In this document: positions 6,670-29,692 of the stretch, piece by piece
How the letters are laid out: every line of letters begins with the position of its first letter
Numbering within the stretch: position 1 is the first letter of the stretch
From: Anadara kagoshimensis
Taxonomy: Eukaryota > Mollusca > Bivalvia > Arcoida > Arcidae
Assembly: GCA_021292105.1 (NCBI GenBank)
Contig: CM037874.1
Coordinates: forward strand, 26,834,583 to 26,898,582
Length of the DNA stretch: 64,000 bases
Reading direction: 5' to 3'
Made by a program: the position numbers and the translations under genes
The notes under the pieces: generated by a model
Seen by the model: the letters and a program-made list of their open reading frames with translations, nothing else
Databases searched by the model: none
Told to the model about the DNA's origin: nothing

Positions 6670-6861
6670 TAGAAAAAAGAGAAAAGATTGAACTACAGTA
6701 ATTGAAATTGATGACAAAATGTATGACAGTAGTTGATTTTAGAACGAAAAACTCGAAATCTCAGCTGTAGAGAAGTATCTCAAAGACTGAAGTAATGGCA
6801 GGGACGTACACCCCCTTAAGATTATTTCACGTATACAGGGGCTTTTGGTACTAATGGTACT

Positions 6862-7012
6862 AGTTCTCAGATAGTAGAAGAAAGCAACTGACTTTCATCA
6901 ACCCAAATGAAAAAACTCCTCACACTTGGGTCTTTTACCGTTGGAGAGGCGTACCTATGAGACGAGAGCCAAGCTAAACCTTTAGACCACTCGGCCACCG
7001 AGGTTACTGGAT
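6862..7012 (-). repeat. tRNA-headed SINE-like fragment
   Basis: Read on the minus strand the head is GGTGGCCGAGTGGTCTAAAGG, as in a type II (Leu/Ser) tRNA A-box arm. CGTCTCATAGGTACGCCTCT follows, but no clear B box remains. I interpret it as a decayed SINE and not a working tRNA gene. Confidence 0.45.
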
Positions 7013-7204
7013 TCAACAAAGAAAATGAGGATTTTTTTCTGGCAACCCCCACAAATGAATAAAGTATCAACTTGAAAGTGTTGATAATAAATGCTGTAAG
7101 ATTTTACAAAGTTTCTTCTGACTGTGGGCATCAACTTAGTCCTTATCCTGAATTGTTTGAGGGAAAACGTTGACAGCAGTTTGTAAAATGCAAATCCGGT
7201 TTGG

Positions 7205-7550
7205 AGCCTAATAATATATTTGGCTGATTAAATGGGGCTTTACGTCCAACATGCCAAGTCAAGAATATATCACTTCTATAGAGGCGTCATAACCTTTATA
7301 TGAAACTAGAACTACATGTACTGTCTCTTGAGGGCAAAATACAACCCCCGCCTAACATTGACCTCGTGACCGTAACCTTTGACTTATGTACATAAATTTG
7401 GTATGCGACACATAGTATCATGTGGGTTTACATTTGTGTCAAGTTTGATAAAAATCCATCCATAGACATATGGAGCGGACATCTTATTAGGACTGACAAC
7501 CAGATCAGACGGACAGATCCCCATATACCCCCTAAACTTCGTCTGCGCTG
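7205..7550. repeat. SINE tail fragment plus an older dispersed repeat
   Basis: 7212-7300 matches the tail of the SINE at 40045-40384 (TTTACGTCC...AATATATCACTTCTATAGAG). 7320-7550 holds TGACCTCGTGACCGTAACCT, then CAAGTTTGATAAAAATCCAT and GACATATGGAGCGGAC, which recur at 28735-29000. No gene is seen from here to 9567. Confidence 0.55.
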
Positions 7551-8233
7551 GGTATTATGACAAATGATTACCATTGCCTGCAATTCGTCCAGGTCAATAT
7601 GCAGAAGGGTTCTTTAATGTACCACACATTGCATGACATTAGGCTGCAGCGCATCCGCTTTTCGGGTCTTCTCCGAAGGACCCAATATATACATGAAGTA
7701 GTAAAACATCTTGGTACACAGATCTGGAGCGATATTTTCGAGGTATTATTCTAGGTCAAAGTTTAAAGACAAGGTATCGGCATGCTCTTAATATTATCTA
7801 TTCATAATTGTGACCTAAATACACATACGCACGACTTCCTAATTTCACGATACCAGGCTGATCAGTAAATATTCAACATGCATGTATGTAAACCATAGAG
7901 AGTTTTAAGCAGGTAAATTTGATTTTTGTTTTTAAAGAACTTTTTTTGAAAAAAAAATATTTCGTCCTTAACTTGCATTAGAACCGTAACTTCAAGGACT
8001 TTTGGCCTAAACAGATTCATAGACAACGAATTTGTTTTTAATCTGTAATATTGCGTATATATATACACATGATACATGAGATAAGGTGACACTTAAATAT
8101 TACAAACTATAAAGCAACATTCCAAAATGATGTACCATAGTAGGGTAACCCAGACTTACCAAGAAAAAGAGAAATACATGAGAATATTCATACTGAATAA
8201 TACGTGATGGGAAATGGTGGGAATGGGACTTTA

Positions 8234-8355
8234 TTTATTTTCTACTTATATTATAGAGTTATTGAACTGATATTGTGAAATATTTTCTCGAGTCAACTCA
8301 GGACAATTTTTCACAATATCAGTTCAATAACCCTTTTATTATATAGAAAAATAAA
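8234..8355. repeat. Long imperfect palindrome (MITE-like)
   Basis: The arms 8234-8280 and 8309-8355 are near-perfect inverses (TATTGAACTGATATTGTGAAA against TTTCACAATATCAGTTCAATA), with a loop of about 28 bp. The RNA would form a hairpin of about 45 bp. Confidence 0.8.
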
Positions 8356-8807
8356 TTTCGTTTACTTCCCTCTATTATTTTATCTGAAAATACCATTTTG
8401 TTTTACAATCCATATTATTGCACTAGTTCTTGTACTAGTGCAATACGACAACAACACAGCGTTGACGTCTTCAACCATGTAACAACAATCGTATGACGTC
8501 ATAAACGACAGCGTCGTGTGACAAAGCGTGCAATATAAAAACTGATTAGGGAAACCTCGGACTGAAACAAAATTTGCGTGCAAATATCGATATTTATTAC
8601 ACGCTAACATCTCGGGATTTATCGTTTAATTTTTATGCGATGCATATATTGTTATATAATAATATCATTTATTTTCTTGAATATTGTAATTGTATTACAG
8701 ATATGGTGGTACTAAAAGCAATAACATTTTTGTTGATTAACACACATATATACGTTAGCTAGAAACGGCTACTCTCGATACCATAGATACTAGGTTGTTT
8801 TGTAGAA

Positions 8808-8811
8808 AATA

Positions 8812-8846
<35 letters not shown>

Positions 8847-9022
8847 ATGATGATCAATGATGTTGATGATGGTGGTGTTGGCGGTAGTGGCGATGATGAT
8901 GATGATGAGGAGGAGGAGGATGGGAGGACGAGGGGAGGGGGAGGAGGAGGAGGAGGACGATGGGGAGGGGGAAGTAGGAGGAGGAGGAGGGAAGTAGGAG
9001 TAGGAGAAGGAGGAGGAGGTTG
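8808..9022. repeat. (AAAT)n microsatellite and a purine-rich tract
   Basis: An AAAT array at about 8811-8848 is followed by GATGAT repeats and then a GGA/GAGGAGG-rich strand to 9022. Minus-strand frames rich in Pro/Ser here are low-complexity artefacts. Confidence 0.9.
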
Positions 9023-9106
9023 ATAAGGCAAAATCATCAATGTACACATATACATGTACCTCGTGCATGTAACTATCAATAGTTCGATGTTCACTTTTAT
9101 TTGCTA

Positions 9107-9300
9107 TACTAGACTATAGGCAAACATCATTGACCTGCCAGCTAGACCTTTCATTAGGAATATTCATATGCGACGACCCACCGGATTTGCAGTTAATACA
9201 TAAACCAGACATGTTAGCCATGATCTGTGTTAAGTTCCGAATGTATTAATACAATGGTTCATAATAAATGTTTAAATTAAAGGACGAACGGACTACGTAA
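9107..9300. repeat. Fragment of the M3 MITE family
   Basis: TAGGCAAACATCATTGACCT followed by CTAGACCTTTCATTAGG matches the ends of the elements at 9315-9552 and 18195-18442. I could not find the opposite end of this piece, so it is called a fragment. Confidence 0.5.
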
Positions 9301-9314
9301 ATGTACACCTATGA

Positions 9315-9552
9315 TATAGTCTAACAACACTGACGTGTCCGGTTGACCTTTCAGCAAGGCTATGCATATATGAGAATTTATGACCACCTAATAAACCGCT
9401 GGTGATAGTTAATTCATGACCAGCGTTTGTTTTAGTGTTACTCATTCTGTAAACGAAAATATACGCGTGATCTCTATATATAATATTTTGGTTTGTAATA
9501 ATTATTTAAGATAAAGTTCAAACGGGTAGGTCAATGCTGTTTGCGTACACCG
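9315..9552. mobile_element. M3 MITE directly upstream of the LU-lectin gene
   Basis: The left end is TAGTCTAACAACACTGACGT with GGTTGACCTTTC after it. The right end is the inverse (AAGTTCAAACGGGTAGGTCAATGCTGTTTGC, shown in parts). The right end stops about 16 bp before the predicted start codon at 9568, so any proximal promoter or 5'UTR must lie inside or beyond this element. Confidence 0.6.
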
Positions 9553-9567
9553 TTCCAATGATTTGCA

Positions 9568-9607
9568 ATGTGGATATTATGTATGCTGTTGTTGTTATTG
9601 TTCTCCG
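9568..9607 (+). CDS. Signal-peptide exon of the LU-lectin gene
   Basis: This 40-nt exon is too short for standard ORF finding. ATG at 9568 gives MWILCMLLLLLFS and ends in phase 1 before GTAATA. Its last base completes GGT (Gly) with the next exon, which begins in the matching phase. The hydrophobic core followed by small residues (SGLSGTG) fits a cleavable signal peptide. A later in-frame ATG (codon 6) would give a shorter core, so the upstream one was chosen. Confidence 0.75.
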
Positions 9608-11416
9608 GTAATACTTTTGCAGAGTAAATTGCCAGTCCAGTTTTATATAAGGGTGTGTGTAATATAAGATGACAGAGTAGAATTTACTTCGGCTATTTTA
9701 TTTTGCGCTCATCAGTTTTACCTTTTATAATTTAATTTGTCCTCTACCAAATTGCCGATTTTAAGCCAGTTTTTTTGGTTATTCTGCTGCTGCTGCTGCT
9801 GTTGTTGTTGTTGTTGTGGTTATATCCGCCATTCTAATATTCTATTGTTCATTCAGGTCTCTCTGGTACTGGTCCATTATGTGTAGAATGCGATAATGTT
9901 GTCCAACCAAGAGATTGTAACCGTGTCACTGTTTGTGGAGAACATGAGGTACACAATTGTTTATATTTTATAAATTAATAAACTTTTTTTAAAATTTTGT
10001 TTTGGTTACTAATAATGAGCTCGGTTAAGAATTCAAACAGAATGTGGTTGAAAAGGCATTGAGGTGTAATTTCATACGTTGAAAAATGTCCCATTTGTCA
10101 TTAAAACCGCCTTTCAGTATTCATATTCGCGTTGTCTTCAAACGACATACCGAGGATCAGCCTACTATATTGTTCAACTGTATGACATAAAATTATATTC
10201 ATATGTACAACAAGGAATGTTTTAATTCAAAATAATTTAACCAGTGTGTTGTTCTTAATATCGAGTGGAGTAAAATGGAGTTTGATGTCTCAGTCAATAT
10301 TTTTTCACTAATACCAAGGCTGAATCTAGCGCCAGCAAACCAGTGTTTATAGAAATTACAATTATGATTAAACTGTTTGACCATTTTTTAAATATGACAT
10401 ATGATTTATGTTCATTTGATCAGTCACACCACATGCATGTGCATGCATATGTTTTCAAAGATAATAGTTTATGTGCAAACGTTTTAATAACGCTGTTATG
10501 TACTACATTTTATTTATTAGTTTTTAAAATGTTTTATTCAAAAGAAGTACATTGCATAATTTTTAACTTTTGAATGGTATTAAAAATATATATATTAAAA
10601 TATATAAGTAGCACATGTAAAAAGCGATACATAGCTTTTCAGTTTTATCTACTTATCTATTTATCAAATTAAATTATTATTTATTTATTTTTAGAGTTGT
10701 TCTGTAGAGTTATTAATAACAACAAGTGGCATAAGATTTTACAAAGTGGGATGCAAAGCCAACGATGTAAGAAATTTTTTTTTCCTTTTCGGTAAAACAG
10801 AAGAAATTTGAATATACCTTAAAATATGTTTTGGACAAAAATACATCTTTGGCAGTAAATGTGGTCAAGTTTTTACGTTTATCTTACGGTAACGTTACGA
10901 TTACGTCACAACGTAAGGAACACCTGTGTGATAAAGTTACCGTAGCGACGTCAGATATTCGATTTTGAAGACAATATATATACATTTCTAGAATCACAAG
11001 AAAATGTTCTTTCAGGATATGATAAAAACTCAGAATCGATACTTTATTTCATAAGGGTCGTCTTGTCATAAAGCAGCTCATTTAATCTGAAACAGAGTTT
11101 AAAACAGTTAAGCATTACAAATGTAAATATTGACGATTTTATGCAGATATGCTACCACAAAACAAGAAGCAGTCATGAGACCGAGTTCTGCTTGGAATGC
11201 TGTAAAGACGAGAAGCTTTGTAACAGAAAGGGATGTGGAGCTTCAGGTAACGAAATATATAATGTGACATTGGGAACTATTTTATCAGTTGTCCACCCAG
11301 GTGGACGCTTTCTCGTTAGCGTGTTCAATTCTTTTTTAGTTTCCTTTTCTTGATTGTTTTGGCTGTTGGCAAATCCTAATGAATTTTTCAACCAAAGCCT
11401 GTTTTGATTTCAGCTG

Positions 11417-11472
<56 letters not shown>

Positions 11473-14400
11473 GTTTTGCTTCGGATTCTTAAAAGTACTC
11501 GGAACCGTTTAAATATTTCTTTGCCGACGTTTTGTGTATCTTCTGGAATCCAAATTTAAAAAAAAGCCTCCTTAGACTATTTAATGTCGTATTCTTTAAT
11601 CTAAAATAACTCTTGAAAAACATTTTCAATAAATTCTATAACTCGACCATATTTTTATGCCAATTACTAGCATCTTGCATTATCTTATAGATTTTAATGT
11701 TACCGCTGGAAAGATTTGTTATGGCTGTAATCAGCATTCACATCCCAACAAGTGTGATCAAATAGTTTTATGTGATCTTGATCAGGTACTTAGAATTAAT
11801 ATTACAACTTATTATACCTCACATATATTAAAACACTTTTCATTGGATGTTTTCCAATCACATGACATGTAATAAATGAGATATTTCCCACAGAATCACT
11901 GTCAGCGTGTGACAACCTCCTACTGCCATGTGATAACCTCTCACAGCCATGTGATAATACTATTATCACCCGTGATAACCCGGTACAAGGGAAATAACTC
12001 GCACAACTGGACCGTGTTGTCATTTTTGTAAACAATAACAATGGCGGCCAGTCGTTGTTTGTAGTTCGTTGGAAGCGGACTTTGAGTTAATTATGCATGA
12101 CAAAGATGCAGAATACACAAAAGGGGCACCAAAGCTTTAGTGAAAATACTAAAAATGCATTTGATGGAAACAGAAAGAGAGGTAAATCTAGATTCTGCGG
12201 AATATAAAGTATGTAGACGAGCGCCAGAAAAGGATGGTTGAAAGTGTAAACTGGCTACATTTAATTTAATTTAAAATTTATATATTGTTTGTGTCATTTT
12301 ACATGGTAAGCTTTGTTTCGGTATAATAAAATAATAATTGCCCTCTAGGTATGTGGACATCCAGAATTGTCACCCTTCAGAAAGGTTTTCACCCTCGGTC
12401 GATGCCCTCGGGTGACAACAGTTCTGTCGGGTGACAATTCTGGATGTCCACATACCTAGAGGGCAATTATTGTATAATATTACAATTCTATTTTATATTC
12501 ACGCAGTCAATATTTTTAATAAACATTGCAAAACTTAGAAAAATTGAAAGGGATAGCTCGAAGTAAATTTTTTATTTTCAATTTCATAGAAACATTTGGG
12601 TTTCCACATTTTTGTACGAGTTAACGATGAGGAATTTTATTCTAGTGACACAAAATTAAATCAGGTTTAATAAAAATTAAAAAAAAAAACATTACAAGAC
12701 TAAAAATGTTGTTTCATGTTAACATTTTTAGAATGACGTGAATGTAATACCCACCTTATCAAATGCACTTAACACATTTTAATTACTATCCTGCGAGCTA
12801 TTAGCTCGACCAAATGATATTAAGTGCAACAATTAAGTAAAAAAATTTAAAATTGCTACTTCGCACAAACATACTCTAAGCATTGTTATAAATATACGGA
12901 TGTGATACTAGAAAATTCCTTCTATAATGTATCAGTTTATATACCGATATACATGTACATTAAATAGTCTATATTTATAATATATTTTCAGGATTGTTTT
13001 ATTTCCCAGACATCTATTGGAACCGATACATTATATACCAGTGGATGTAGGTCCACGACGGCAAGTTTTTATACCGTTATTTAAATAAAAAAAACAATAA
13101 TCCATGTCCAAAATCCGATTCCAAAAAAGTCAACCACAAACATACCGAGCCATGTTCAAATCGCAGTCCAAGTATGAAACTGGCAAATTAAATCACATCC
13201 AACAGGGAAGTGAGGTCGGGTGCTCTGGAAAGATAAGCCATCCTATTTAACTAGATTTATCTGTCGTGTACGTATATTCAAAATTGAGAAAAAAGGAACA
13301 TGAAACCGTGGAGCGTCAAATAAATCCATGGTAATTTAGAATACAGACACATCATACTTATCAACTTAAACAAATGATTTGAAAAAATTAGTCGAATGGT
13401 TTAACTGTCTTTCCTTAAACTCGATATCTTATTTGCTTATAGCTTAATTATATTAACACTGATCCATCCAGAAGGAGCCGAGATAAAGATAGCTAGTGAC
13501 CGAAAAGCTGTCCGAGATATTATTAGCAGCTGTTGAGATATTGCTAACGAGGGACCTAGATGACTTGCTGATTCAGCACTTATTCGGTTGGCTTAATATT
13601 AAATTTTCAACATGGTCTACACTGTATTTCGAGACCAATAGTTCATATGTTCTAAGAACATAACTTGCTCGGAAAGAGCATCATAGTAAATTGCAGTCAT
13701 AAACAAACTGCTAGCTAAGCTGTTTATATTTATTTATTGATAAAGTTAATGAATCTGTAAGTCCTCGGTAATTAGGACTTGACGCTCAGACGAGAAATAG
13801 CCGTCTCTTAAAATTAAATATAAAGATAACGTCTTTATTGGATAATCATTTTTTATATAAATGATACCTTTTTATTTCCCCTATCTAGACTCTGCATATC
13901 GATATCACACATAAAAATCCTCATAAAATAAACGATTATCACGAGAAAGTCATAAAATCGCAATTTAATGCATTTTTCTAAATTGATATTATAACTGAAT
14001 TTCCTTTCAAGTGAATTTTTCAGTGATAAAAAATTTAAATTTAATTTTGTAATCAACATTTTAATTATATCACGTCATAAAAATTATCCAGTATTTTCTT
14101 TCATACAAATTTATACAAACAAAGTACAGACCTGTCAAAAGTTAAACACCATACGAAGAAAAAGTAGCTAAAGCAATAGCCACAGAATCACGTCTATATT
14201 TTACACTTGAATCTATTTTTTCTTACGTTGATAGTTTAGAAAAAAACTTAAAAAGTAAAATGAATCACAAAACAAGCGTATATTTTTACTTAAAATCTAA
14301 GTTTGAACTTAGCTTTTCGGAAAACAGTGCCTGGCCCCGGGATCACGGACAATACTTAACTTTTTTGGACTTAACTTAGTTACATGTAAATAAAAACTTA

Positions 14401-17400
14401 TATTTTGAAACTAAGTGTGTGCCTAGCTTTGTCATATACCATTTTTTGAATTTAATCATAAAATACATTTAAAAAATGGTATAGACAATATATACCATTT
14501 TTTGAATGTATTTTATGATTAAATTAAAAAAAAAATGGTATATGACAGCTTATATTATTAGTATTGTTTGTGACCCCGGGAACTGCTATCGAGTGGTCGT
14601 GATATGGGTAGTTAGTGGCCAATAAGCTGTCGAGAGATAGAAAGCAGCTGCCAATAAGCTGTCGAGAGGTAGAAAGCAGCTGCCAATAAGCTGTCGAGAG
14701 GTAGAAAGCAGCTGCCAATAAGCTGTCGAGAAATTATTTCGATTGATGTGGGTACAGGTGAACTGTCGATTGGGCACTAATTCGATAGGTAAGTGTCAAA
14801 CTTTAGACAGGTCTGTACTGTAACTTAGTAGACAAAATGATGAAAGTTGAAAATCTTAAAAATATTTTATCTGACGGATTTTTATAGGTCTTGTAAGATA
14901 TCCCCAGCTAAAGCATTAACCTATTTTTTTTACTCAATATTCAGTACAGCCCTGTCGAAAGTTTAACACTGAGCTAACACAAATAGAGTTGAAGTCAACT
15001 GCCGAGTGGCCGAGATATGGATAGCTACATGTAGTGACCGAAAAGATACAGAAAAATAACCACTGCCGAACTACGTTGTGCGTACAGATGTAGCTGACAA
15101 TCCAATTCTGATTTTATTTTAGCATGATGATAAACTTTAGACTGAGCTGTTCTTTGAAACACACATATTGGTAACTTACTGAGACAAATTAAGTTGTATT
15201 TTTACAATTAAGAGTTTAGGACATTTATGCCGTATAAATTATAATGTAAACATAAAAAATGTCAGAGAAGATGTTTAAGGGTGTCTTATTTATCTGAATC
15301 AAGTAACATAATAAAAACCAAAGCGAAATAGATCATTTTGTAAATGGCATTTTTCAGTGCTTTATTTATTATTCACAGTCAGAAATCTTATTCTACGAAA
15401 GTATCCCAATAATTCGATATTATAATGAGCTTTTTATATATCCAAAAGAAAGTATGATACACACGGTTTCTGTTTACATCTCAATATTTCAGAAAAAGAA
15501 AAACCGCAAGTGTGTATCAAAAACAAATATACTAATCCACATCGAAGCAAAGAAAAACTTTGAAAATGACAAGTTAGGTAAGAAACTTGGACTTCTACCA
15601 GGGAAGTAAGGCCGGGTGCTCAGGAAGGGTAATCACTTCCTGTTTAGCTAGCTACACCCGCCAAGTGTGTAATTCAAATTTGTGTGAAAAGAACAAGGAA
15701 CTATGGGACATCAAATATATCCTGGGGAATCCTGGACACAGAGACATCAAACTTATCATTAATACTGTGATGGTTGCCAGTATTTTATGATGATGTGTTT
15801 TATGTAATATTTTAGCATTGCCCATTGTCACACATACATCAAGGTTGTCCTAAGTGCTGTGACTCTATGCTGTGTAACGACAATTGTAACATAACATCAC
15901 AGAACACCGATTCTGGCAACACAGCTTCTACACAGACTTTTACAACAAAACAATTGAAAACAACGACCGAAACATCTACAAACACGGTTTCCATAGCAAC
16001 AACGAAAATACAACATCCTACTACACAAAGCACGCCAGGTTGGTATAACACAATCTAACCCAATCAAAATTAAGAGAAATGAAATTTGTGAAATTTATTT
16101 GAAATCGATGATTGGGGTGTCGACTTCATAACACATTTGGTTTTTGATGGCGTCACAAAAGTAAAAGATTGTGTGTTCAAACAAAAATTGCTATGTGCTA
16201 ATAAAACAAAATGATAACTTACGGATGAATATGATAAACCTTCTGTGTTAGATGGCGAGACTGCGCCATAAAATATGTTTGTGTCACCTCTGTTTCGTCG
16301 ATCTTGTGTAGATTGAGACTTTATCGATTTTTGTGAAACAACACAACCATGTAATCATAGCAACTGTTTTGTCTCAACGTTGTAAATTACTTTTTGTGAA
16401 AGAAAATCCAAAATCTTTCTTCCTTTTATGAAGTTATCAATTTTAAACGATTGTGGCAGTGATAACACTCTATTCATTATCAAATATAGGATAGTTGATA
16501 AGCATATTTGCTAATAGTTGATTGAACAGCTATTTAGATGTATACAATTTTTTGTTTAAACAATAAATCGTGCTCCTTTGACAAATTCTTAAAATTTTAC
16601 TGGTGAAGCCCGTTAGAGTTATTCCTCTTTGCAAATATTTTTCAGACCGTTTACCTTCCTGTCCAAGTGGACAATGGCATATTTTAAAAGGTTCTAAATA
16701 CTGCCTGTTTTCCAGTTTTGGAAAATTCACTTGGCCAGCTGCAAAGGTAAATACATGTACACAACTTAAAAATAAGAATACTCACAATTATAACAAATTA
16801 TATTAAATTTATGACCATATTTCACATCTCTCTCTCTCTCTCTCTTTCTGCTGTTTGTCCAAGTATCACAAACACGCACATTCTCTTCATTACGTGCATT
16901 CCATTTGAAATTTCACAAATAATTAACTTAACTTTACGTTGATAATACAATGCTTTATAATTTTTTTACCTGGATGAATGAAACTGTCAGGTGAACATTT
17001 TTTCTATTACACATTGTTAAAGGTCTTGGTTCTTAGATTCCTGCTAGTAGACATCTCCAACATGTCTGTATACACTGACTATGACCGTGAATGTGAACTA
17101 ATTGAGGGGTTATATCAAAACTTGGTCGTTTTTTAATAATAAAATACGATCAATTCCAAAAAACTCCGTTTTTCCTTATATTATCTTTATAATTCAAGAT
17201 CCTGGACAAACTTAAAGGCATATATTTCCCCTTAAAAAGGGAATTTAAAAAATAAAGTTAGACTGGTTTTACAAGTACGGTTTTCATTTACAAACGAGAG
17301 TCGATTACACCGGCCAGAAATTGCTGAAAATGTCAACAACAGGCGAAATTTTACGTCTCCGCAATCTCCAAAGTGTTCCAACAGTCGTATAGAATTCCCG

Positions 17401-20400
17401 AATTGCATATTCAACTTGCACTCAATATTATTTATAACTTCGTTAAACTTTTCACATTTATGTCTGATATTTTGAATTTTTCTATTTATGTGATGTATTT
17501 TGTAAAGGTTGGTTGGTTGAATGTTGCTTAACGTCGCATCAGAAATTTTTCAGCTGTTCGCGAATAGAACTATTTAATTAATCTCTATGGATTAATATAT
17601 GAACAATTTTATGTATGCATGTGAAGTGCGAGTGTGTTGTATGGTCTGCCTTGTACTAGTGCGCACTCAGGGCGACTTTACCGTGCTAGCTCACAGAGTC
17701 AGTATGCCGCAGACAAGCGTACCACTCCCCCAGTCCATTATACTGATACCAGGTGAATCAGTAAAGGCCAACGGTAAGGAAAATTCACTTTCCCACATGT
17801 GGTCCGAGCGGGACTCGAACTCACAGCGGTGAGAGACCCTGGATTTGAAGACTGACGTCTTATCCATTAGGCCACCGCGCCCTCTATTTTGTAAAGGGTT
17901 ACTAAAGAATACATACACTGTAAAACATCTTAGCTGCTAGAATCAATCCTTTGGCAGGAAATTAAAGTTCCGAATTAAGTTCTATGTTTGGTAAACGTCT
18001 AACAAAAGGCAAAATACCGCAATTATCAACAATAACAGTGTATGTATATAGTGAGCGTGTCTCTGTCCACTGTAATATAATGGTTGAGGTTCCACACCAG
18101 ACTTTTAAAAGGCACTAGAAGTTCCATCTTTTGCAGCAACAGCAACATTCGATTTTCCCAGTTTTCTCTCGTGACTAACAATAATAATAACACATACTGG
18201 AATGGTCAACAACATTGACATGCCCGATTGAACTTTAACTTATATATTATCATGGGTCAGTTCGTTTATGTGTAAACGTAGGAGTTCATATAGTGTACTA
18301 CATCACGGGTGATATTCAACTCTTAACTCTGTGTTTGTTTATTTTGAATCTTAACACTACCAATTTATTGGGTGGATTTTCCTATATGAATGTTCCTAAT
18401 AAAAAGTCAAGCGGACAGGTCAATGTTGTTTGCCTATATAGGTCATCCACGATCTGATGTAATCTATTTTAATATTAGGGTAATTGTAACATATAAAGCG
18501 CGTGCCGGCGTGATTATGCTCATACGTTAATACGCTATTTACACCTGTATGCGTTATTTAAGCCGTCCGTGTTTATAACCATTGTGCCATCAAATCGAAG
18601 ATGGACTAGAATATAATATATTTATGAACATGTAGATATATTCAATATATTATATTTACTAGTATAATGCAAAGTTAAATTTTGAAACATTTCGTCTTTA
18701 GTTCACATTCACGATCATAGTCAACGCATACAGGTAGGTTGGAGATGTCTAGTATCATCATACATGACTACAACCATTACGTCGAATAACAAACGTTAAT
18801 TTGTGGTGTTTATATGTATGTATAAAAATATTGTCATATATCACTTTTGGAGTGTATTTCACTTTTTGAATACATTTTATGATTACATTCAATAAGTGGT
18901 ATCCGATACTATGTAAAATTCGCACTTCGTCCGTCCATTCAGACACTTCTTGTCCGGATTAACTCCTAAAATCTATAAAGCACTATTTTACTAAATTTGG
19001 TGCAAATTATCAACAATGTTAGGAGATGCGTATTTTATTAACCATATTTTACTTGGTAGATTTCTGAGAGTTATCATGGCGGGTGTAGCTAGCTAAACAG
19101 GAGGTGCTTACCCTTCCGGGGCACCCGGTCTTACTTCCCTGGTGGAAGTTCACGTGTCTAACCTGACTTGTCAGTTCCGAAGTTTTTACTTTGCTTCATG
19201 AATGTGATTCGGACATGAATTAGTATGTTTGTTTTTTATTATCGTCTTTTGAATATAATTTCAAATCACAAAATGTACCTACTATAGTCCGATCACATTT
19301 TCAGTGATGAAAAAACATGTTTTGAATGGGTGGTGTGATTCAAACTTAGATATCTCACTTGATATAACTTCAATAGACTTGAAATTTCACATATGTTATA
19401 AGAACATGTTTTTTCATATTTTGAATATTTTTTTGCAAATCTTCTCAGCTTTTTCAATTTTTTGTTGTTAATTTATATGAATAAATTTTAATAAACTTTT
19501 TCGATAAAAGTTTGTCGAGAAATAATACCTGTTCGTTTGCAGCCTTGTTTTAAATATAAGTACTTAAAAATACTATTTTTCTATCTTCATGGTTAAATTT
19601 TCAATATTCACTGTAGTTTTTGAGTTTTTGGGAGTCAAAAATTAGCAATTAATTGAAAGGTAGCTGTTGTCCCTCTTTTATGTTGATATGGCATATTCGA
19701 CGGTTTCATTCATGTAAGCCATTCATTATTGGGTTCTATTGGCTAATATGTATTCACGCGATACGGGTTTATACAGGTGTTTCTATTCTTAACTAGTATA
19801 CGTCACGGACTAACCCATTGCACTTGTTTATGAATGGACAACAGGTAAAACAGCACAAACGTCAAAATATTGAATAATATTCATTTATTATACATGTTTA
19901 ATTTGGCCTTGAACGACACACTTTTTTAATTTCATGTTTTAAAACTACAAAACCTTCAAGCTCATCTAACAAAGTCGCGATTTTTGTCTCAAAAGATGAA
20001 GGTATTGGCGATAATGCATTTTACTACGTGATACGTATCGTCTGAATAAAAACGGGTTTTATTTAATTTTAGACTTAATATATGAAATTTAATCAAATTA
20101 TTTAAACACATGTTATAAAAATAACAGATCTACATATAGCATTAATGAAATATGAGGTAAGTAATCCACGATCTTTTTAAGGCCACATTGGTTTTCATCA
20201 CTGAATAAGTGATCGGACTATAACGGGAGATTCTAATTTCCTTATTATTTATTTTAGACTTTGTGTCAGAAGCACCTAATGCATCTACCTATAGTTGACA
20301 CAGATGAAAAAATGCATTTTATTGATTCAATAATTCGAAACGATAACCATGACAGTAAGTTTAATAATACAATCAAACAAAAACAAGTTAAAAATTATAG

Positions 20401-23122
20401 CCAAACACAAACATACAGACTCATGTTGAAATTACAATCCAAAATGCAATGAAAAAGCTTTGAAACTGGGGGCAAATTAAGTTGAACACGTGAACGTCCA
20501 TCAGGAAAGCGAGGCCGGGTGTTCCGGAAAGGTAATATCAGAAATAAAATCTTATTATTATGACAAGAGACAAGCATATGGAATGTAAAACGTATGCACT
20601 GTTCAAAAATAGTTTTTGTCAATCTCATTTTAAATCTTTGATTTGTACCCAGCTAATATGAAACTTTTCACCTCAAAGTTGTCAAAGCTACGTGAAATGA
20701 TCAATTTCTTGGTGACATTTTGTGGCACAAATTGCCATTGTATCCGGAATAGGCAATAATGCCGGTCACGTGAAGATACTTGAATGCACTTGTGTAGTCT
20801 TGACACTAACGCCACTAATATACGTCAGTTAAGACTGATAACATAACATTAGTATTTTACCTATCTTTAATAGAATTAGAAGTCCAATTAATTCTTACCT
20901 TATCAACAGTTTAGTCAGACAATAGGGCAATAATCACACATAAAGATACCAGTACATGTCCAAACCACGATTGTAAAAGCAAAGAATCAGCTTTGAAAAC
21001 CTGTAAATTAAGATAAAGACGTGTACTTCCACCGGGAAAGTGAGACCGTTTGCTTCGGAAGGTTGAACATATCCTGTCTAGCTATTTCTATTTGCCACGT
21101 GTTAAATCAAAATTGAGAATAAAAGAAACATCGAACTAAGACAAAAAATATTGCCAACCACCAACCGGTGCGACCATCTTGCAATTCACCAATGGGGTTC
21201 GCAACTTTACCACGTGATACAATCTAACGTTTGTGTGGAACACTTGTTTCCAATGGATATGGAATAGCATAAGATTACGTTTCCCCGCAAAAGTCACGTT
21301 ATTTCTGGAATTGTGACGTTAACGTTTTCCAAAACGTTCCGAACAAACGTCAAGGGGTACTGATAACGTAGTACAGCGGCGAACCCCATTGATCTTGTCC
21401 TTGTCACCTTCGCTTAAATAATTGTGTATTTCATTTAAAGTCTGGCTAGACGGTACTGACATAGCAGTCGAAGGCTACTGGGTTTGGAACACTACTGGAA
21501 CATTAATAGAACACACAATGTGGAACACAGATCAACCTGACAATTACTTTGGAACACATAGTGAAAACTGTATCGAATACGGACCTGATTATAACTACAA
21601 ATGGAACGATGCTCCTTGTGATCGGCAGTTAAATGTTCTGTGTGAATGGAGGTACATTCAGGTCTTATTATTACAGGAGTCAACTATAAGTTATTAATCT
21701 GACGTATGATTTATTACTTCTGCCACATGCTACTTGTGAATGCATTATTTTTATAAACAATCTAAAGTATGACACTCACTTCGAATATTTTTAAAATGCT
21801 TTTTAACCTATCATATGCTATAATATCTGTGTGCGCGTGTGTGTGTGTGCGTCTGTGTGTGTGTGACTCGCTTTCTTTACCCAATTGTTTTACCAGGCAA
21901 TGTAGAATCATATCTAACATAGATGCGGCTTGCATTTGAATCTGAATCTTGTATGAACAAAAATTGAATAAATGGGCATTTGTATATGCCACCAAAGCCT
22001 TTTTTCAACTATGGTAACAAATACAGACCTTCTTATATGTCCACTTTGATAATTTCAGAAAGTTTGCTCATTAAATAAAACCATTCAGTTTATTTATTTT
22101 TAGTGCTGTGAACCCTGTGCAATTGCATATACCAGGTAAATGTAATATGTTTTATAATATATTTCTATTAAAACAATTGAACTGTTTTGAAATTGCGTTT
22201 ATAGTCAATATGAATGTCAAATCTTTGCACGACAAAATGAATAATGAGCGATAGCTTGGTAATTAGACCAAAATTGCGAAACGGAAATTTCTTCATTGGG
22301 TTGAAAAAAATACCCAAAAGACCAAAGTTTAGCTAAGGAAATACTTTGCATTAGGGTGTATACATGTGCTCTAAACCCTTATCTTTTACATACAATAGGG
22401 CAACGTTAAGTCATCATTGTTTGGTAATAATGTCATTGTTAACGTATCGAGCATCCACAGCAATATCGGTCGATGTTAAATAATCGATTTTTACTATTTT
22501 ACCATGCCGTACACCAATCCCAAAAGGCCAGACATACAAACTGGTTATTCTTGTATATTACATGCTAAATCATTTGAATTTACATTGCGACTGCAAATTC
22601 AACGCCCAAAAACGGGGAAAAACACTGCTGTAAAATATGAAATTTTTAGTAGCCAATGAAACATAGAACACGAAGAAAAACAACTACTAGTATGTGCATG
22701 TTTTTAAATAACTAACAGTGTTTTAAAACCGCCTACTTTGAGCTTTATGATGTAAAAATGATGATCCCAGACCTGCCAATGGCATTGATAAAAATACCAG
22801 GCAAGTATCCGGTAGTGTGGTTCAAGTACTGGAAATTCTAATACTACAGTACATAGTGCTCTTTAAATAGACACGCATATAACATGCAAATATAAAATAA
22901 ATTACTGAACAACCTACCATGTTTTAGTTATACTTCATACTTTCATTGAAGCAATACTAATATATATTTTTCATTTTAATATTTTCTTTTTGAAACAATT
23001 TTATTATAATTTTTTTTTAAATTATTAATTAATTAATTCATTCATTCATTCATTCATTCATTCATTCATATATTATTATTATTAATTTTATTTATTTATT
23101 TATTATTAGCTCACCTGAGCCA

Positions 23123-23154
<32 letters not shown>

Positions 23155-23183
23155 GTCCGTTGTCTGTCGTCGTCGTCGTCGTT

Positions 23184-23219
<36 letters not shown>

Positions 23220-23267
23220 ACGAACCACTGGGCAGATTTCAACCAAATTAGGCACAAAGCACCACTA

Positions 23268-23304
<37 letters not shown>

Positions 23305-26300
23305 TACCCTCTTTAAAGGGGAGATAATTGAGAATTATTGAAACTTTGTTGGTATTTTTCAAAAATCTTCTTCTCAAAAACTATTCGGCCTGTAAAGCTT
23401 AAACTTTTGTGGAGGCATCCTTAGGAAGTGTAGATTCAAGTTTGTTCAAATCATGGTCCCCGGGGGTAGGGAGGGGCCACAAGAGGGGGATCAAGTTTTA
23501 CATAGGAGTATATAGAGAAAATCTTTAAAAATCTTCTTCTCAAAAACTGTTAGGCCTGAAAAGCTCAAATTAAAATGGAAGCATCCTGAGGTAGTGTAGA
23601 TTCAAGTTTGTTCAAATCATGGTCCCCGGGGTAGGGAGGGGTCACAAGAGGGGGATCAAGTTTTACATAGGAATATATAAAGAAAATTTTTTAAAATCTT
23701 TTTCTCAAAAACTATTAGGCCAGAAAAGCTCAAATTAAAATGGAAGCATCCTCAGGTAGTGTAGATTCAAGTTTGTTCAAATCATAGTCCCTGGGGGTAG
23801 GGTGGGGCCACAAGAGGGGGGTCAAGTTTTACACAGGAATATATAGAGAGAATCTTTAAAAATCTTCTCCTCAAAAACTATTAGGCCAGGAAAGCTCAAA
23901 TTAAAATGGAAGCATCCTCAGGTAGTGTAGATTCAAGTTTGTTCAAATCATGGTCCCCGGGGGTAGGGAGGGGCCACAAGAGGGGGATCAAGTTTTACAT
24001 AGGAGTATATAGAGAAAATCTTTAAAAATCTTCTTCTCAAAAACTATTAGGCCTGAAAAGCTCAAATTAAAATGGAAGCATCCTCAGGTAGTGTAGATTC
24101 AAGTTTGTTCAAATCATGGTCCCCGGGGGTAGGGAGGGGTCACAAGAGGGGGATCAAGTTTTACATAGGAATATATAAAGAAAATTTTTTTAAATCTTTT
24201 TCTCAAAAACTATTAGGCCAGAAAAGCTCAAATTAAAATGGAAGCATCCTCAGGTAGTGTAGATTCAAGTTTGTTCAAATCATAGTCCCTGGGGGTAGGG
24301 TGGGGCCACAAGAGGGGGGTCAAGTTTTACACAGGAATATATAGAGAAAATCTTTAAAAATCTTCTCCTCAAAAACTATTAGGCCAGGAAAGCTCAAATT
24401 AAAATGGAAGCATCCTCAGGTAGTGTAGATTCAAGTTTGTTCAAATCATGGTTAAATAATAGTGTATTTTCCATGCTGTATTCTTTTATATAAGTATTTT
24501 GATATAAAGTTAAATATATTGTTCATGAGAAATATATTAATTGTACTTGTATTTAAAAGCTAATTTTTAATGTAAATCCTGCTGTATTCTATAATTTCTA
24601 TTTGCCATTTCCCGATTACAGTATTCGGCCTATGCATTTTCTCTCTTTTGAGATTGGTAGATTGCATGATGAAAATTTTTTTTTAAATTATTTCATTGGT
24701 TGAAATGCTGTAAGAAAAAGGTAACGGAATAAGCCGAGGCTTGTCGAAACATCAACCTTTTACGGTACATAGAAATACTTACAAATGTTTAGTGAAAAGC
24801 ATCGGTAGGAAGTATAGATTTCAGTTTGTACAAAACCTCCCTCCCCTGCACTCACTTCAATACTGAACTCATTTCGGCTTCTACCTAGCAAGTTGCTCAG
24901 GTGAGCGATGTGGCCCCTGGGCCTCTTGTTATTATAGAAATATATATTACATTTTCTTAATACTGGTTGTCATGATGTCTTGTAGACTGTGATACTGGTT
25001 GGAAAACTGAAGGTTTTACAATGTTCTGCAGTGTAAATACACGAACCACTTGGTTTGAGGCAAAGGTACTATTGATGATAACAATAAAATTTACAAATTT
25101 AGATAAAAATACTAGAAATTGATCATAATTGAACGAAGAACATGCAACAACAAACACATCAATGTTCAAAGTAGTTTTAAGATGTTCGCCTCTCATAATA
25201 AATCTTCAAATGTTTGGACTGGTGCTGGAGAAATTGTGTTTAAATAATTATATGTGTAATATTTGAAGATTCCCAACAACTAATTTGCTGACTAATATAA
25301 AATCAAACTCTATTTATTTATTTATTTTGTTCTATTTTAGACACTGTGTCAGAAGCTTCACGCACATTTGCCGATTGCTGATTCAGCCGAAAAACAAACG
25401 TTAATAGGCAGAATGGCGGGTCAAAATGAAAGTAAATAATTTATATCTAATAAATAATGCATTTACGAGTGTTTTACATTTGTCTTGCACATAACTGTTT
25501 GATATCTGCAGAAATGCAAACAATAAAATGTCATTGACAAAGGAAAAAGTTGAAAATTGATAAACACAGGTACTCATTTACATGTTTTATGGCCAAACAA
25601 ACTGATGCTGTTATAATAAATATAAGTCACAATCTCGGAGAGATAATGAGCTGTGTTATATAATACTAGTATTTAAATTTGTAATGTTTTGTTTTGTAAA
25701 AGTCTTTTTGAGAATAAATGTAATTCTATGGTGATAATGTGACGTCATGGATTTTTGCTGTGCATATAACCGTGACGACGTCTTTTATTGGCTATTCCAG
25801 CAATAAGCTTCACACCTCGTACGCAATCTTGTTTGAATAATGTCAATAGATTAGCGTGCATTATTCAATTTTCATTTGCAAGGTAATGGACGATAAAAGA
25901 TTTTAAACGTCATTTCGAGGCAGTTAGATGATAAAATAATAATAATATGGTTTATTAAAGTGTCACATGCTATTATACTGTTGCTGTTATAGAGAAAATG
26001 TTATTAAATGTTTATTTAGCAGAACTCTATGCTTTGTGTATCTGACCAAACATACTTATCATATAAAAAGCATGTCATTTGAAAATAGCAAGCAGTTTAA
26101 TGTATATAACTGACTATTACGTATGCGTAATTCTGTCGATTTCAGTATGGTTGGATGGTACCGAAGAAGGCCACAAAGGTATTTGGAAGTGGAGCTCAAC
26201 TGGCCAAAACATAAGGTAAGCAAGCTATCCTTTATAAAACTATATTGATTGTGTCCACTACTCGATTGGTAACTCGTTGACATTTTGGTAGCCTAATCTC

Positions 26301-26926
26301 CAGTTTAAGATTTAACATGCTACATGTATTGATATATTCATGGTGTTCCCATTTGTATCAGACTAGAAGAGCACCAGCCAGACAATGGGAGTCACCGTCG
26401 AACCACATGGCATCCAATTACTTCTTTTGTGCGCATTGGATATTGAATTGCACAACATGGCTTTGTACCGTAAATCGGTTTTAATCCAGAAAACATTGGC
26501 GTAAACGTTTTCCAAAACTTTCAACACAATCGTTAAATGCCCCATTTTACATTTCTTTCAAACTGACCAAAGTACCCATCAGTATAAATATAAAATTAAT
26601 TGACTAAATAATTTGTCTCACAATCAACAATTAAACATGATACTTTTGGTCTCTAATTATAATGTATGTTGCCATTAATATATATATATCATTCGATGAT
26701 AATTTACAGTTATATTTTTCTTTCGTCAGACACTAGAATTTGAATTAATTGCAGGTACTCTAACTGGATGCCAACACAACCGGACGACTACCTGGGTCAT
26801 TTAGAGAACTGTATTGAGTATGGTAGAAATTATAATTGGCAATGGAATGACGCACCTTGTAATGACAATCAAAGAGTGACTAAAGTGTTATGTGAAAGAT
26901 ATGTTCCTAGCATGGTTTACGGATGA
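9568..26926 (+). CDS. Secreted two-LU-domain, two-C-type-lectin-domain protein (16 exons, about 524 aa)
   Basis: I assembled this gene by hand. Exons: 9568-9607, 9857-9948, 10695-10766, 11147-11246, 11691-11785, 12992-13060, 15816-16038, 16646-16746, 20258-20354, 21441-21651, 22104-22135, 22771-22800, 24986-25065, 25341-25431, 26146-26215, 26755-26926. Phases agree at every junction and the total, 1575 nt, is a multiple of three. Domain order: signal peptide (about residues 1-18, MWILCMLLLLLFS...), LU1 (about 22-101), LU2 (about 106-185), Thr/Ser-rich stalk (about 186-230), CTLD1 (about 232-367), short linker, CTLD2 (about 388-515), then a short tail. No transmembrane helix or GPI signal follows, so secretion is predicted. 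Two donors (13061 and 22801) are GC instead of GT. AATAAA follows the stop at 26931. The likely role is binding a sugar or partner outside the cell; the biological function is unknown to me. Confidence 0.82.
9857..11246 (+). CDS. LU (Ly6/uPAR, three-finger) domain 1, three exons
   Basis: Exons 9857-9948, 10695-10766 and 11147-11246 (phases 1-0, 0-0, 0-1). The cysteine pattern is that of a Ly6/uPAR domain: CVEC, RDC, VCGEHESC, a central GC, ICY, and the closing signature CCKDEKLCN. The final CC-x5-CN is diagnostic of the family. Because the three-exon set starts and ends in phase 1, it can be duplicated or skipped as a block. Confidence 0.85.
11421..11469. repeat. (CT)n microsatellite
   Basis: About 24 uninterrupted CT units in an intron of the LU-lectin gene. 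Confidence 0.95.
11691..15905 (+). CDS. LU domain 2, three exons
   Basis: Exons 11691-11785, 12992-13060 and the first part of 15816-16038, with the same phases (1-0, 0-0, 0-1) as LU1. The cysteine order repeats LU1: CYGC, KCDQIVLC, DCF, SGC, HC, then CCDSMLCND. Equal intron positions indicate an exon-set duplication. The middle exon ends at a GC donor (ACG|GCAAGT at 13061). No GT donor gives a frame-compatible alternative nearby. Confidence 0.8.
12331..12476. repeat. Near-perfect palindrome (MITE-like)
   Basis: The arms contain AATTGCCCTCTAGGTATGTG and GGACATCCAGAATTGTCACC, and their inverses, about 45 bp each. The loop contains a second small hairpin (CACCCTCGG...CCCTCGGGTG). It lies in the intron before the 12992 exon. 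Confidence 0.85.
13095..13380 (-). repeat. R1 element copy
   Basis: Reads AATCCATGTCCAAAATCC, AACAGGGAAGTGAGGTCGGG, AAGATAAGCCATCC, then the inner GAACATGAAACCGTGG and GACACATCATACTTATCAAC. It begins 35 bp after the GC donor at 13061. Confidence 0.7.
13470..13625. repeat. M1-related interior fragment
   Basis: GATAGCTAGTGACCGAAAAG followed by GGACCTAGATGACTTGC matches the interior of the M1 elements at 27517 and 14940, but no clean ends are seen. Confidence 0.45.
14124..14822. mobile_element. M1 MITE, long form with internal satellite and palindrome
   Basis: The ends are GTACAGACCTGTCAAAAGTT on the left and the inverse ending AGACAGGTCTGTACTGT on the right. Inside are a palindrome (14431-14546, arms around TACCATTTTTTGAAT) and a 32-bp tandem repeat (14619-14733, about 3.6 units of CCAATAAGCTGTCGAGAGGT plus 12 more bases). 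Confidence 0.75.
14940..15155. mobile_element. M1 MITE copy, diverged right end
   Basis: The left end is CAGTACAGCCCTGTCGAAAG with TTTAACACTGAGCTAAC, and the interior has GTGGCCGAGATATGGATAGC. The right end is weak (TAAACTTTAGACTGAGCTGT). Confidence 0.6.
15525..15785 (-). repeat. R1 element copy next to an exon
   Basis: Reads CTAATCCACATCGAAGCAAA, ACTTCTACCAGGGAAGTAAG, CACTTCCTGTTTAGCTAGCT, then ATGGGACATCAAATATATCC and GAGACATCAAACTTATC. It ends about 30 bp before the exon at 15816. Confidence 0.8.
15906..16038 (+). CDS. Thr/Ser-rich stalk between LU2 and CTLD1
   Basis: About 45 residues rich in Thr, Ser and Gln with few hydrophobics (TTKQLKTTTETSTN and similar), ending in TTQSTPG at a phase-1 donor. 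Such segments usually carry O-linked glycans and hold domains apart. It shares an exon with the end of LU2. Confidence 0.75.
16646..21651 (+). CDS. C-type lectin domain 1 (three exons)
   Basis: Exons 16646-16746, 20258-20354 and 21441-21651. The fold signature is complete: CPSGQW, YC, W..AK, LCQK, IWLDGT, the calcium-site motif QPD, ENCIEYG, KWNDAPC and LCEW. QPD with WND is associated in this family with Ca2+-dependent galactose-type binding; this is family knowledge and not proof. The N-terminal CPSGQW...YC pair gives a long-form CTLD. The region that CTLD2 splits by an intron is fused in one exon here. The first intron (16747-20257) holds a SINE, MITEs and an R1 copy. Confidence 0.88.
17620..17885 (-). 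mobile_element. tRNA-Arg-like SINE
   Basis: On the minus strand the head is GGGCGCGGTGGCCTAATGGA with an A box (TGGCCTAATGG), followed at tRNA spacing by a B box (GAGTTCGAGTCCC). An unrelated body of about 180 bp follows. The head resembles an Arg tRNA, and the body makes it a SINE and not a tRNA gene. It lies in the intron inside CTLD1. Confidence 0.65.
18195..18442. mobile_element. M3 MITE copy
   Basis: The left end GGTCAACAACATTGACATGC and the right end AGCGGACAGGTCAATGTTGT are inverted relatives. The interior matches 9370-9440 in order (GGTGATATTCAACTC..., GTGTTTGTTT). Confidence 0.6.
18835..18910. repeat. Short inverted repeat related to the palindrome at 14431
   Basis: TATCACTTTTGGAGTGTATT...GAATACATTTTATGATTACA and AATAAGTGGTATCCGATA resemble the 14431-14546 palindrome but are shorter and more diverged. 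Confidence 0.4.
19078..19245 (+). repeat. R1 element, one end
   Basis: GGCGGGTGTAGCTAGCTAAA, GGGGCACCCGGTCTTACTTC and the terminal GTATGTTTGTTTTTTATT are well preserved. Confidence 0.85.
19283..20222. mobile_element. Non-autonomous DNA transposon with 30-bp TIRs
   Basis: The left TIR TATAGTCCGATCACATTTTC then AGTGATGAAAA is the inverse of the right end (TTTTCATCACTGAATAAGTG then ATCGGACTATA). The 940-bp interior has no open frame of note. The outermost TA at each end could be a 2-bp target duplication, as for Tc1/mariner-type elements; family assignment is inference. Confidence 0.8.
20375..20540 (-). repeat. R1 element end
   Basis: CAAACATACAGACTCATGTT, ACTTCCATCAGGAAAGCGAG overlap and GTGTTCCGGAAAGGTAA. 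It starts about 20 bp after the exon ending at 20354. Confidence 0.7.
20930..21140 (-). repeat. R1 element copy
   Basis: CAGTACATGTCCAAACCACG, GTACTTCCACCGGGAAAGTG, CATATCCTGTCTAGCTATTT and GAAACATCGAACTAAGAC. Confidence 0.7.
22104..22135 (+). CDS. Linker micro-exon 1 (32 nt)
   Basis: This exon lies between TTTTTAG and GGTAAAT and encodes SAVNPVQLHIPG across its junctions, in phase with CTLD1 (phase 2 in, phase 1 out). It joins the two lectin domains. Confidence 0.65.
22771..22800 (+). CDS. Linker micro-exon 2 (30 nt, GC donor)
   Basis: It follows ATCCCAG and is followed by GCAAGT, a non-canonical GC donor. It encodes DLPMALIKIPG across its junctions. It is phase 1 in and phase 1 out, so it can be skipped without changing the frame. 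Its end (IKIPG) resembles the end of micro-exon 1 (LHIPG). Without transcripts it remains a prediction. Confidence 0.5.
23109..24930. repeat. GCTCACCTGAGC-ended repeat with a higher-order tandem array
   Basis: The outer ends are GCTCACCTGAGCCAAAGGCT and the inverse GCTCAGGTGAGCGATGTGGC, followed by CCCTGGGCCTCTTGTT. Between them are about six and a half units of about 166 bp containing AAAAACTATTAGGCC and GGTAGTGTAGATTCAAGTTT. Three unit types repeat as a block: starts of the CATGGTCCCC / CATAGTCCCT marker are at 23452, 23618, 23783 and again at 23949, 24115, 24281, so the block period is 497-498 bp. It lies in the intron between the linker and CTLD2. Confidence 0.88.
24986..26926 (+). CDS. 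C-type lectin domain 2 and C terminus (four exons)
   Basis: Exons 24986-25065, 25341-25431, 26146-26215 and 26755-26926. Motifs: CDTGW, MFC, TWFEAK, TLCQKLHAHLPIAD, IWLDGT, W.W, NWMPTQPDD, ENCIEYG, QWNDAPC and VLCERY. The TLCQK..HLPI and WLDGT blocks are nearly the same as in CTLD1, so the two domains arose by duplication. The intron after ...QNIR is absent from CTLD1. Translation stops 10 residues after the last cysteine-containing motif (VPSMVYG). Confidence 0.88.
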
Positions 26927-28480: not shown

Positions 28481-28734
28481 TTCAAGATAAAGTTCGACAT
28501 TTGATTAGTTTATTCAATGATTAATACAAATTGAAAAGCATCAATAGAATTAATGTGTGTTATTTAATAAATTTTCCTCAATTTATAGCAATGTGCTTCA
28601 GGTTTACAAAATTCTATTCACATTTGGCATTCTTAACATTAATTTTTTAATATTAAGAATTTGCATATCGTTTTTGACTAATCAACTGATTAAACTAATC
28701 AAATCTCGAATAACTGACACCCCAGAGGAATCTA

Positions 28735-29000
28735 ATACAAATAAAATCCATGGGCGGTCTTTACAGAGGCAAATATCCCTGTCACCCCCAACATTGTCGA
28801 GATGTTATTTGACCTTGTGATTGTTACCCTTGACTTATGCAACTTAATTCATTATGACACATCGACTCGTATAACTACAGTTATGCCAAATTTGATCAAA
28901 ATCTATCCATTGACATGCGATATATGGAGCGGACGTTACATGTACATGTATATACTTGGACGGACGAACACAGTGATTTCTATATACCCCGTAAACTGCA
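28735..29000. repeat. Old dispersed repeat (same as 7320-7550)
   Basis: TTTGACCTTGTGATTGTTAC, CCAAATTTGATCAAAATCTA and GATATATGGAGCGGAC parallel 7320-7550 in order. Confidence 0.6.
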
Positions 29001-29481
29001 TATGCAGCAATATTGAGCTGTAAAGACATAATGTATTACTTCAATATTATATTTTTATTGCTTCTCAGGTGTGTTGTGATGTGGGCTATTTATTGCACAT
29101 TAATTTGAAAGCAGAATTATCCTTAATATATCATGTCTAAAATTGTTTTAATGTCAGTTGTCTGTCTATGACTTGGTGATATTAATGTGACGTCATATTG
29201 TCCTGATTTGATGTTGTTAAGTTTTATGTCATTTTTAAGCACACATGTGTCACCAACAGCGCCAAAGGCATAATTTAAACGTCCTTGGAATAGAGAAAAA
29301 TGATATGCCCCAGTTAATGCATTTTTGACACTTTTAATTTTATTTTCTGTTTACATTGGCTGCAATTGCACTGTAACATGTAGCTAGTTCATCTTAAATA
29401 GAATTAACAATGACTGGGGTCACTCAAAATATCTTTACCATTTTCCTTTGGATTGATAAAGCTAGAAATATTTTTAATATA

Positions 29482-29692
29482 TAGGACAGGCCTGTCGAAA
29501 ATTTATCATTGCACTAACGAAAAGGAATCGAATCTTCGTTACGATACAGATAGTAATTGCCCCCGAAAAGCTGCCAAAAGAAATAACGTGGCTGCTGTTA
29601 ATCTATCGAGAGGTAGCTATCGAGGGGCCGAGCTGGGCTGTAGATTCGACACTAACGTTTTGACTTAAAATTTCGACAGGTCTGTACTGTAC
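29482..29692. mobile_element. M1 MITE abutting the first peptide gene
   Basis: The left end GGACAGGCCTGTCGAAAATT and the right end TTTCGACAGGTCTGTACTGT are inverses. The interior has GCTATCGAGGGGCCGAGC. The right end is about 22 bp before the start codon at 29715 and just upstream of its splice acceptor. Confidence 0.8.

Follow-up and report, generated by a model that had tools for sequence, protein, structure and literature searches.

Can a single bivalve gene join domains of the Ly6/uPAR (LU) type to C-type lectin domains (CTLDs) in one secreted protein, and what might such a protein do? This question is raised by a locus in Anadara kagoshimensis (GCA_021292105.1, contig CM037874.1), which we analysed within a stretch of 64,000 nucleotides referred to here as the window (C18:26834583-26898582). 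A first-pass annotation of this locus had proposed that sixteen exons encode a signal peptide, two LU domains, a Thr/Ser-rich stalk and two CTLDs in a soluble recognition molecule. We found 15 exons rather than sixteen on the forward strand of window 9568-26926; these join in frame to give 514 amino acids with a stop at 26926, as a script check of the borders confirmed, and the proposed order holds, with a hydrophobic start followed by LU1, LU2, the stalk, CTLD1, a short linker, CTLD2 and the stop. That the LU and CTLD exons belong to a single gene appears very likely. Our preferred reading, which we regard as evenly poised between acceptance and doubt, is that this one gene encodes a recognition protein that is secreted and rich in disulphides and belongs to a family in which modules are swapped behind LU domains.

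The exon borders were read by eye and then subjected to a scripted test of splice combinations up to 3 bases to either side; two combinations were available, one of which leaves an open frame, and the test is a consistency check rather than an exhaustive search. At 8 of the 14 introns more than one in-phase AG/GT choice lies within 15 bases of the border, so single borders may move by a few residues. The donor of exon 6 is best fitted by GC, as it also is in a second copy of the gene described below, and a GC-AG intron after this exon is most likely; a weaker in-phase GT lies 15 bases further on and would add five residues. Exon 1 (9568-9607) carries the start codon and a hydrophobic, signal-peptide-like segment (MWILCMLLLLLFS) with a phase 1 donor, and under the thresholds applied no other exon across 4000-9856 combines an ATG, a hydrophobic segment and a fitting donor. 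At the other end the protein terminates 10 residues past the last CTLD cysteine, and inspection by eye found no transmembrane stretch in the 514-residue model. The hydrophobic start and the lack of a transmembrane stretch make it plausible that the product is secreted, in agreement with the soluble form first suggested. Repeated stretches near 15600, 19100 and 27300 lie outside the coding model.

The window might instead hold two adjacent genes, a secreted LU-LU-mucin protein ending after exon 7 and a separate downstream lectin with two CTLDs. No signal-peptide-like start exon was found in the 607 bases between the stalk in exon 7 and CTLD1 in exon 8 (the same scan finds a candidate in 4 of 122 background windows of 600 bases), exons 7 and 8 join in phase 1, and the order is repeated in the second copy and, on one strand, at distant loci. 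Read-through of the exon 7 donor does meet a stop at 16058, such that a short LU-only product could arise by intron retention, and AATAAA words occur in the AT-rich intron between exons 7 and 8, at the number expected by chance. We consider the two-gene arrangement highly improbable. Possible starts for a separate CTLD gene were sought as well and rejected: intron 8 yields three candidate entries, two of which are one ATG with two donors, and all lie past the first CTLD exon and so are unable to start a whole CTLD1. An assembly join between 16038 and 16646, which the first-pass annotation had named as a possible flaw, is also unlikely, because the second copy keeps the same order with an intron of a different size (2,146 versus 607 bases).

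The lectin half of the protein is the more readily classified. CTLD1 is encoded by exon 8 (16646-16746, first part), exon 9 (20258-20354, middle part) and exon 10 (21441-21651, last part, with QPD, SENC and WND), and is separated from CTLD2 by the linker in exon 11 (22104-22135), 31 of whose 32 bases are kept in the second copy. CTLD2 spans exon 12 (24986-25065), exon 13 (25341-25431), exon 14 (26146-26215, with WLDGTEEG...) and exon 15 (26755-26926), the last of which holds QPD, LENC, WND and the stop and is the same in the second copy at 172 of 172 bases. Both domains match Pfam Lectin_C well above its cut-off of 22.6 bits (56.0 and 56.9 bits), and beyond these two nothing in the 514-residue protein passes a Pfam cut-off. 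A tree built from 27 CTLD ends, nine of them LU-linked and 18 others picked from match lists, places CTLD1 and CTLD2 as sisters (54% identical, support 98/91), which makes a doubling of the lectin half within the gene probable. The intron preceding CTLD2 also contains a 166-base tandem array of 6.6 copies (window 23361-24452).

Calcium site 2 of a CTLD consists of EPN or QPD, a glutamate and WND, and CTLDs with QPD and WND often bind galactose-type sugars with calcium. As the first-pass annotation had noted for QPD and WND, both window domains keep these residues, together with a glutamate before the next cysteine (SENC or LENC); the motif was read in the model for both and aligned for CTLD1. 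Binding of protein rather than sugar, in a matrix or shell protein rather than an immune lectin, is nevertheless an alternative for a single gene of this kind. The five alignments listed for the end of CTLD1 comprise four EPN lectins and aggrecan, whose CTLD we take to bind protein and whose QPD...WND stretch aligns with the last CTLD1 exon; thrombospondin (TSP1) repeats, which are usual in matrix proteins, also occur at one of the related loci described below. Retention of the calcium site 2 residues in both CTLDs speaks against such a role, as does the clam lectin MCL3, which likewise has QPD and WND and is tabled in a review of bivalve lectins as inhibited by or binding Gal/GalNAc (galactose/N-acetylgalactosamine) sugars (PMC12842671), although the review describes the EPN/QPD specificity rule as simplified. 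On balance we find a protein-binding matrix or shell component unlikely.

The LU half is encoded by exons 2 to 4 for LU1 (9857-9948, 10695-10766 and 11147-11246, for its first, middle and last parts, the last with CLECC...LCN..C) and by exons 5 to 7 for LU2 (11691-11785, 12992-13060 and 15816-16038), of which exon 7 also carries the Thr/Ser-rich stalk and ends in a phase 1 donor. LU domains bind proteins and are marked by ten cysteines with a CC pair and a final C-N. LU1 and LU2 show this pattern, with one further cysteine pair in common, and an alignment of seven domains (LU1, LU2 and five drawn from three relatives, for which some exon borders were guessed) has 12 invariant cysteines, made up of the ten LU-type positions and the extra pair. 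Taken singly, LU1 and LU2 reach Toxin_TOLIP at 13.8 and 20.3 bits, below the cut-off of 21.2, and at E up to 1 the members of the alignment match UPAR_LY6 in 5 of 7 cases and Toxin_TOLIP in 6 of 7. The LU half and stalk used as a single query gave no match in PDB up to E=10, and a Pfam UPAR_LY6 search of the genome returned one match (E 7.95), a method that is useless for short exons. A profile built from the seven domains was more informative: its PDB matches at E up to 10 comprise 14 sequences, of which 13 are LU proteins, including LYPD1 (E=5e-4, the only match below E=0.001), PSCA (0.029), LYPD6 (0.088), LYPD6B, GPIHBP1, SLURP1 and CD59, and one is TGF-beta receptor type 1, whose fold is presumably related to LU. 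Of the domain searches that the first-pass annotation had recommended, the one for Lectin_C gave two matches and the one for LU left the single domains below threshold. LYPD1, LYPD6, PSCA and uPAR resemble the window domains in their ten-cysteine pattern with a C-N end, and the first three of these proteins are among the profile matches just named; to our knowledge, however, known LU proteins of this type are membrane-anchored or LU-only and none has a CTLD, whereas the window protein joins an LU pair to CTLDs.

One may also postulate a secreted defence or signalling factor in which receptors or channels are acted upon by the LU pair as effector and the CTLDs merely target the molecule. Many proteins that bind receptors have the LU fold, ShK modules stand behind LU domains in some relatives, and dibasic sites occur in the last loop of most relative LU domains read, all of which would suit such a role. 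The window LU domains, however, have no such dibasic sites, and their C-N end is typical of Ly6 proteins; we regard an LU effector as distinctly unlikely, more so than a matrix or shell protein. The dibasic sites (KR, RR or KKR) precede the last LU cysteines in most relatives read (L043, L045-L050, L053 and L054) and are missing from the first LU domain of L043 as well as from both in the window; these loops look as if they were cleaved by a convertase yet held by disulphides.

Whether the window gene is an isolated case was addressed by searching the whole assembly (1.115 Gb in 36 pieces). The LU half gave 74 exon matches, including 14 that belong to the window gene or its copy, and the LU pair of a distant relative gave 64; accepted up to E=10, these matches (138 rows in both searches) form 54 same-strand clusters, 52 of them off C18. 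CTLDs were counted at the 150 places scored among 868 C-type lectin exon candidates found at first look, with matches on pieces C1 to C19 (38 to 76 Mb where a size was given). Of the 52 clusters, 7 are followed on their own strand by a scored CTLD no more than 40 kb away (5 at 20 kb and 8 at 60 kb), none has one upstream, and one has a downstream CTLD on the other strand. When CTLD positions were rotated in 2,000 trials, the mean was 0.23-0.24 and the maximum 5, and the observed 7 was reached in 0 of 2,000. The test was run twice, once on 105 of the 138 rows with 55 Mb assumed where the size of a piece was unknown, and once on all 138 with more true sizes; the 33 rows absent from the first run were repeats or near neighbours in the second LU search, and both runs agree on 54 clusters and 7 of 52.

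These loci differ in the modules that accompany the LU exons. At C1:51.503-51.515 two LU domains are followed by two ShK modules and the first and last CTLD exons, and at C11:35.109-35.134 two LU domains are followed by the first and last CTLD exons. The stretch C11:29.043-29.052 holds the last exon of one LU domain, one three-exon LU domain and a last CTLD exon; C11:17.437-17.446 has the same arrangement with damaged-looking LU exons. At C7:41.186-41.204 we found ShK, several TSP1 repeats and a last CTLD exon, with the upstream LU exons taken from the search tables only, and the reading at C11:35.98 and C7:41.77 covered the last CTLD exon alone. In 9 kb read at C11:26.74 an LU end precedes ShK-like sequence, and a pattern search there found no CTLD. 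Pfam supports Lectin_C in 4 of 4 exons of the relatives, TSP1 in the one stretch submitted and ShK above cut-off in 1 of 2 stretches. Start phases agree with those of the window gene for the first LU exon (5/5), the middle LU exon (5/5, one being a second-best candidate), the last LU exon (6/6) and the last CTLD exon (3/3). For a signal exon in the relatives there are three weak candidate entries in C11 and one in L044, with none found in C1.

On the tree of 27 CTLD ends, the distribution of LU-linked ends needs four changes, one of them forced by well-supported branches, and the ends of C11:35 and C7 cluster together (support 100/98); LU may have been joined to lectins once or several times, and a tree of eight LU domains is compatible with either history. 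Because distant loci repeat the order of LU followed by CTLD, the window gene is not an isolated oddity, and a few independent loci, by their module order and strand, support an LU-headed modular protein family, so far unnamed and possibly immune in role, in this genome. C12 (for example L053 and L054) shows many LU exon matches with no scored CTLD nearby; two stretches there, of 9 kb and 8 kb, both contain LU exons, with a Thr-rich run, and a pattern search of them found no CTLD.

The second copy lies inverted within C18:28296001-28313500 and retains 15 of 15 exons in order. Past exon 1 its frame is open, with 19 replacements and no cysteine lost. Across the 495 codons past the start segment the two copies differ by 16.5 synonymous and 21.5 replacement changes over 313.6 and 1,171.4 sites, respectively, giving a ratio of replacement to synonymous change per site (dN/dS) of about 0.34 overall and about 0.08 in CTLD2 with the linker. 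Synonymous and replacement changes number 3 and 1 in CTLD2 with the linker, 8 and 6 in CTLD1, and 3.5 and 7.5 in the stalk; as replacement sites are about four times as numerous as synonymous ones, constraint is visible in both CTLDs. The copying extends over most of the 5 kb tested past the gene's downstream end (28501-33500, 91-95% identity), and the second copy is thus part of a larger block, perhaps the other haplotype or allele in the same assembly. Given this shared block it does not represent an independent locus, though it makes an error within the gene less likely. At C18:28304977-28305484 (L041/L042) the exon for the LU2 end and stalk stands three times in tandem in the second copy, with two of the three apparently shortened.

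Among described systems, the way of working proposed below is nearest to that of the snail immunoglobulin (Ig) lectins. These VIgL proteins of Biomphalaria (CREPs, GREPs and FREPs) are lectins of the plasma that likewise carry other domains ahead of the lectin domain, and are described as plasma proteins that bind larval parasite material (PMC5433772). Their front is formed by one or two Ig domains, in contrast to the LU pair of the window protein, which has no Pfam match to Ig at E up to 1 and is thus not a member of the VIgL family. Crayfish PcLec3 is likewise a lectin of two modules, described as Ig plus one CTLD (PMC4944128), where the window protein has LU and two CTLDs. Multi-domain C-type lectins, some of them secreted, are also described from bivalves (Cflec-3, Cflec-4, AiCTL-9 and Cnlec-1; PMC12842671), and the bivalve CTLDcps likewise comprise lineage-specific architectures, some uncharacterised, with WSC, sushi, scavenger receptor, apextrin, Ig and CUB rather than LU given as partner domains (PMC10140915). 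Neither article uses the terms Ly6, uPAR or three-finger in its main text. Among the matches listed from the open full-text literature, with subscription papers, supplements and animal protein databases outside its scope, we found no description of LU, Ly6 or ShK combined with a CTLD, which is weak evidence of absence and consistent with the statement in the first-pass annotation that no described class has this order. The mannose receptor family, finally, is defined by Cys-rich and FnII domains, at least eight CTLDs and a transmembrane tail; the window protein has two CTLDs, no FnII match in Pfam and, by eye, no transmembrane tail.

If the preferred reading of a secreted recognition protein is followed, the two sister CTLDs would bind Gal/GalNAc-type glycans with calcium, and their pairing would strengthen this binding. 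The Thr/Ser-rich stalk may keep the CTLDs apart from the LU pair and give them reach, while the LU pair would dock on a fixed partner, which might be a receptor on blood cells or epithelium or a further LU chain, such that bound microbes or particles could be passed to the animal's own cells. More tentatively, and with the balance somewhat against it, the genome may hold an LU-headed counterpart of the snail Ig-lectins, in which modules are shuffled behind a constant LU pair that serves as one shared docking end. The exchangeable tails would then be CTLD, CTLD-CTLD, ShK-ShK-CTLD and ShK-TSP1 repeats-CTLD, together forming a diversified soluble recognition set, a suggestion we make with equal reserve. 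A shared LU docking end with varied tails would mean that animals without antibodies built a second, Ig-free coupling of varied lectins to one effector route. It would also offer a testable function for the 54 clusters of LU exons that this genome shows at E up to 10, for which we found no description in such a setting.

Several observations weigh against these interpretations. The gene model was drawn from genomic sequence. The LU half shows no clear constraint between the copies (2 synonymous and 7 replacement changes), and in exon 1 of the second copy the ATG is replaced by ATA and an in-frame stop is present, so that an inner ATG is the one that remains; either this copy is impaired, or it uses the inner start, or both copies use another first exon. 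With respect to sugar binding, aggrecan carries a motif similar to the QPD stretch of CTLD1, and Tyr follows QPD in the window lectins, where galactose lectins have Trp. As for the family, the relatives are linked by order, strand and splice phases rather than by a whole LU-to-CTLD frame, the start phase of the first CTLD exon matches in one of two cases, 45 of the 52 clusters off C18 have no scored CTLD within 40 kb (with 150 of 868 candidates scored), and at an E cut-off of 10 some LU clusters may be chance matches. The seven loci furthermore include likely duplicate pairs (C11:35.1/35.98, C7:41.2/41.8 and C11:17.4/29.05); with duplicates collapsed, 4 of 49 remain when the matches of the two LU searches are pooled (mean 0.21; 3 of 2,000 rotations attain this number), and 4 of 46 with the matches of the LU-half search alone (attained in 0 of 2,000).

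The remainder of the window holds other features. No tRNA was found in its 64 kb by ARAGORN, and no Rfam family matched at gathering score. Some 2.8 kb downstream of the lectin gene, a single-exon frame of 114 residues (29715-30056, forward strand) opens with a hydrophobic segment, continues with a part that runs up to LVKR, and then turns into an amphipathic-looking stretch rich in Lys (GLFKTLKNKAKGVVDKVKKV...) that closes with KKIFG; it looks like the precursor of an antimicrobial peptide and matches no Pfam family above cut-off. A repeat of about 190 bases (window 31887-32082) recurs at 40 or more further places across chromosomes; of the 40 scored among 9,228 candidates, 39 have 91-98% identity and one has 70%. 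An open frame on the reverse strand at 46047-47918 encodes 624 residues with TRIM-like B-box zinc fingers, beside a forward-strand frame of 949 residues with a reverse transcriptase domain (48249-51095). Pieces of sodium:neurotransmitter symporter genes lie at the two ends of the window (2394-2774 and 62788-63051, forward strand), one matching the end and the other the start of the Pfam profile.

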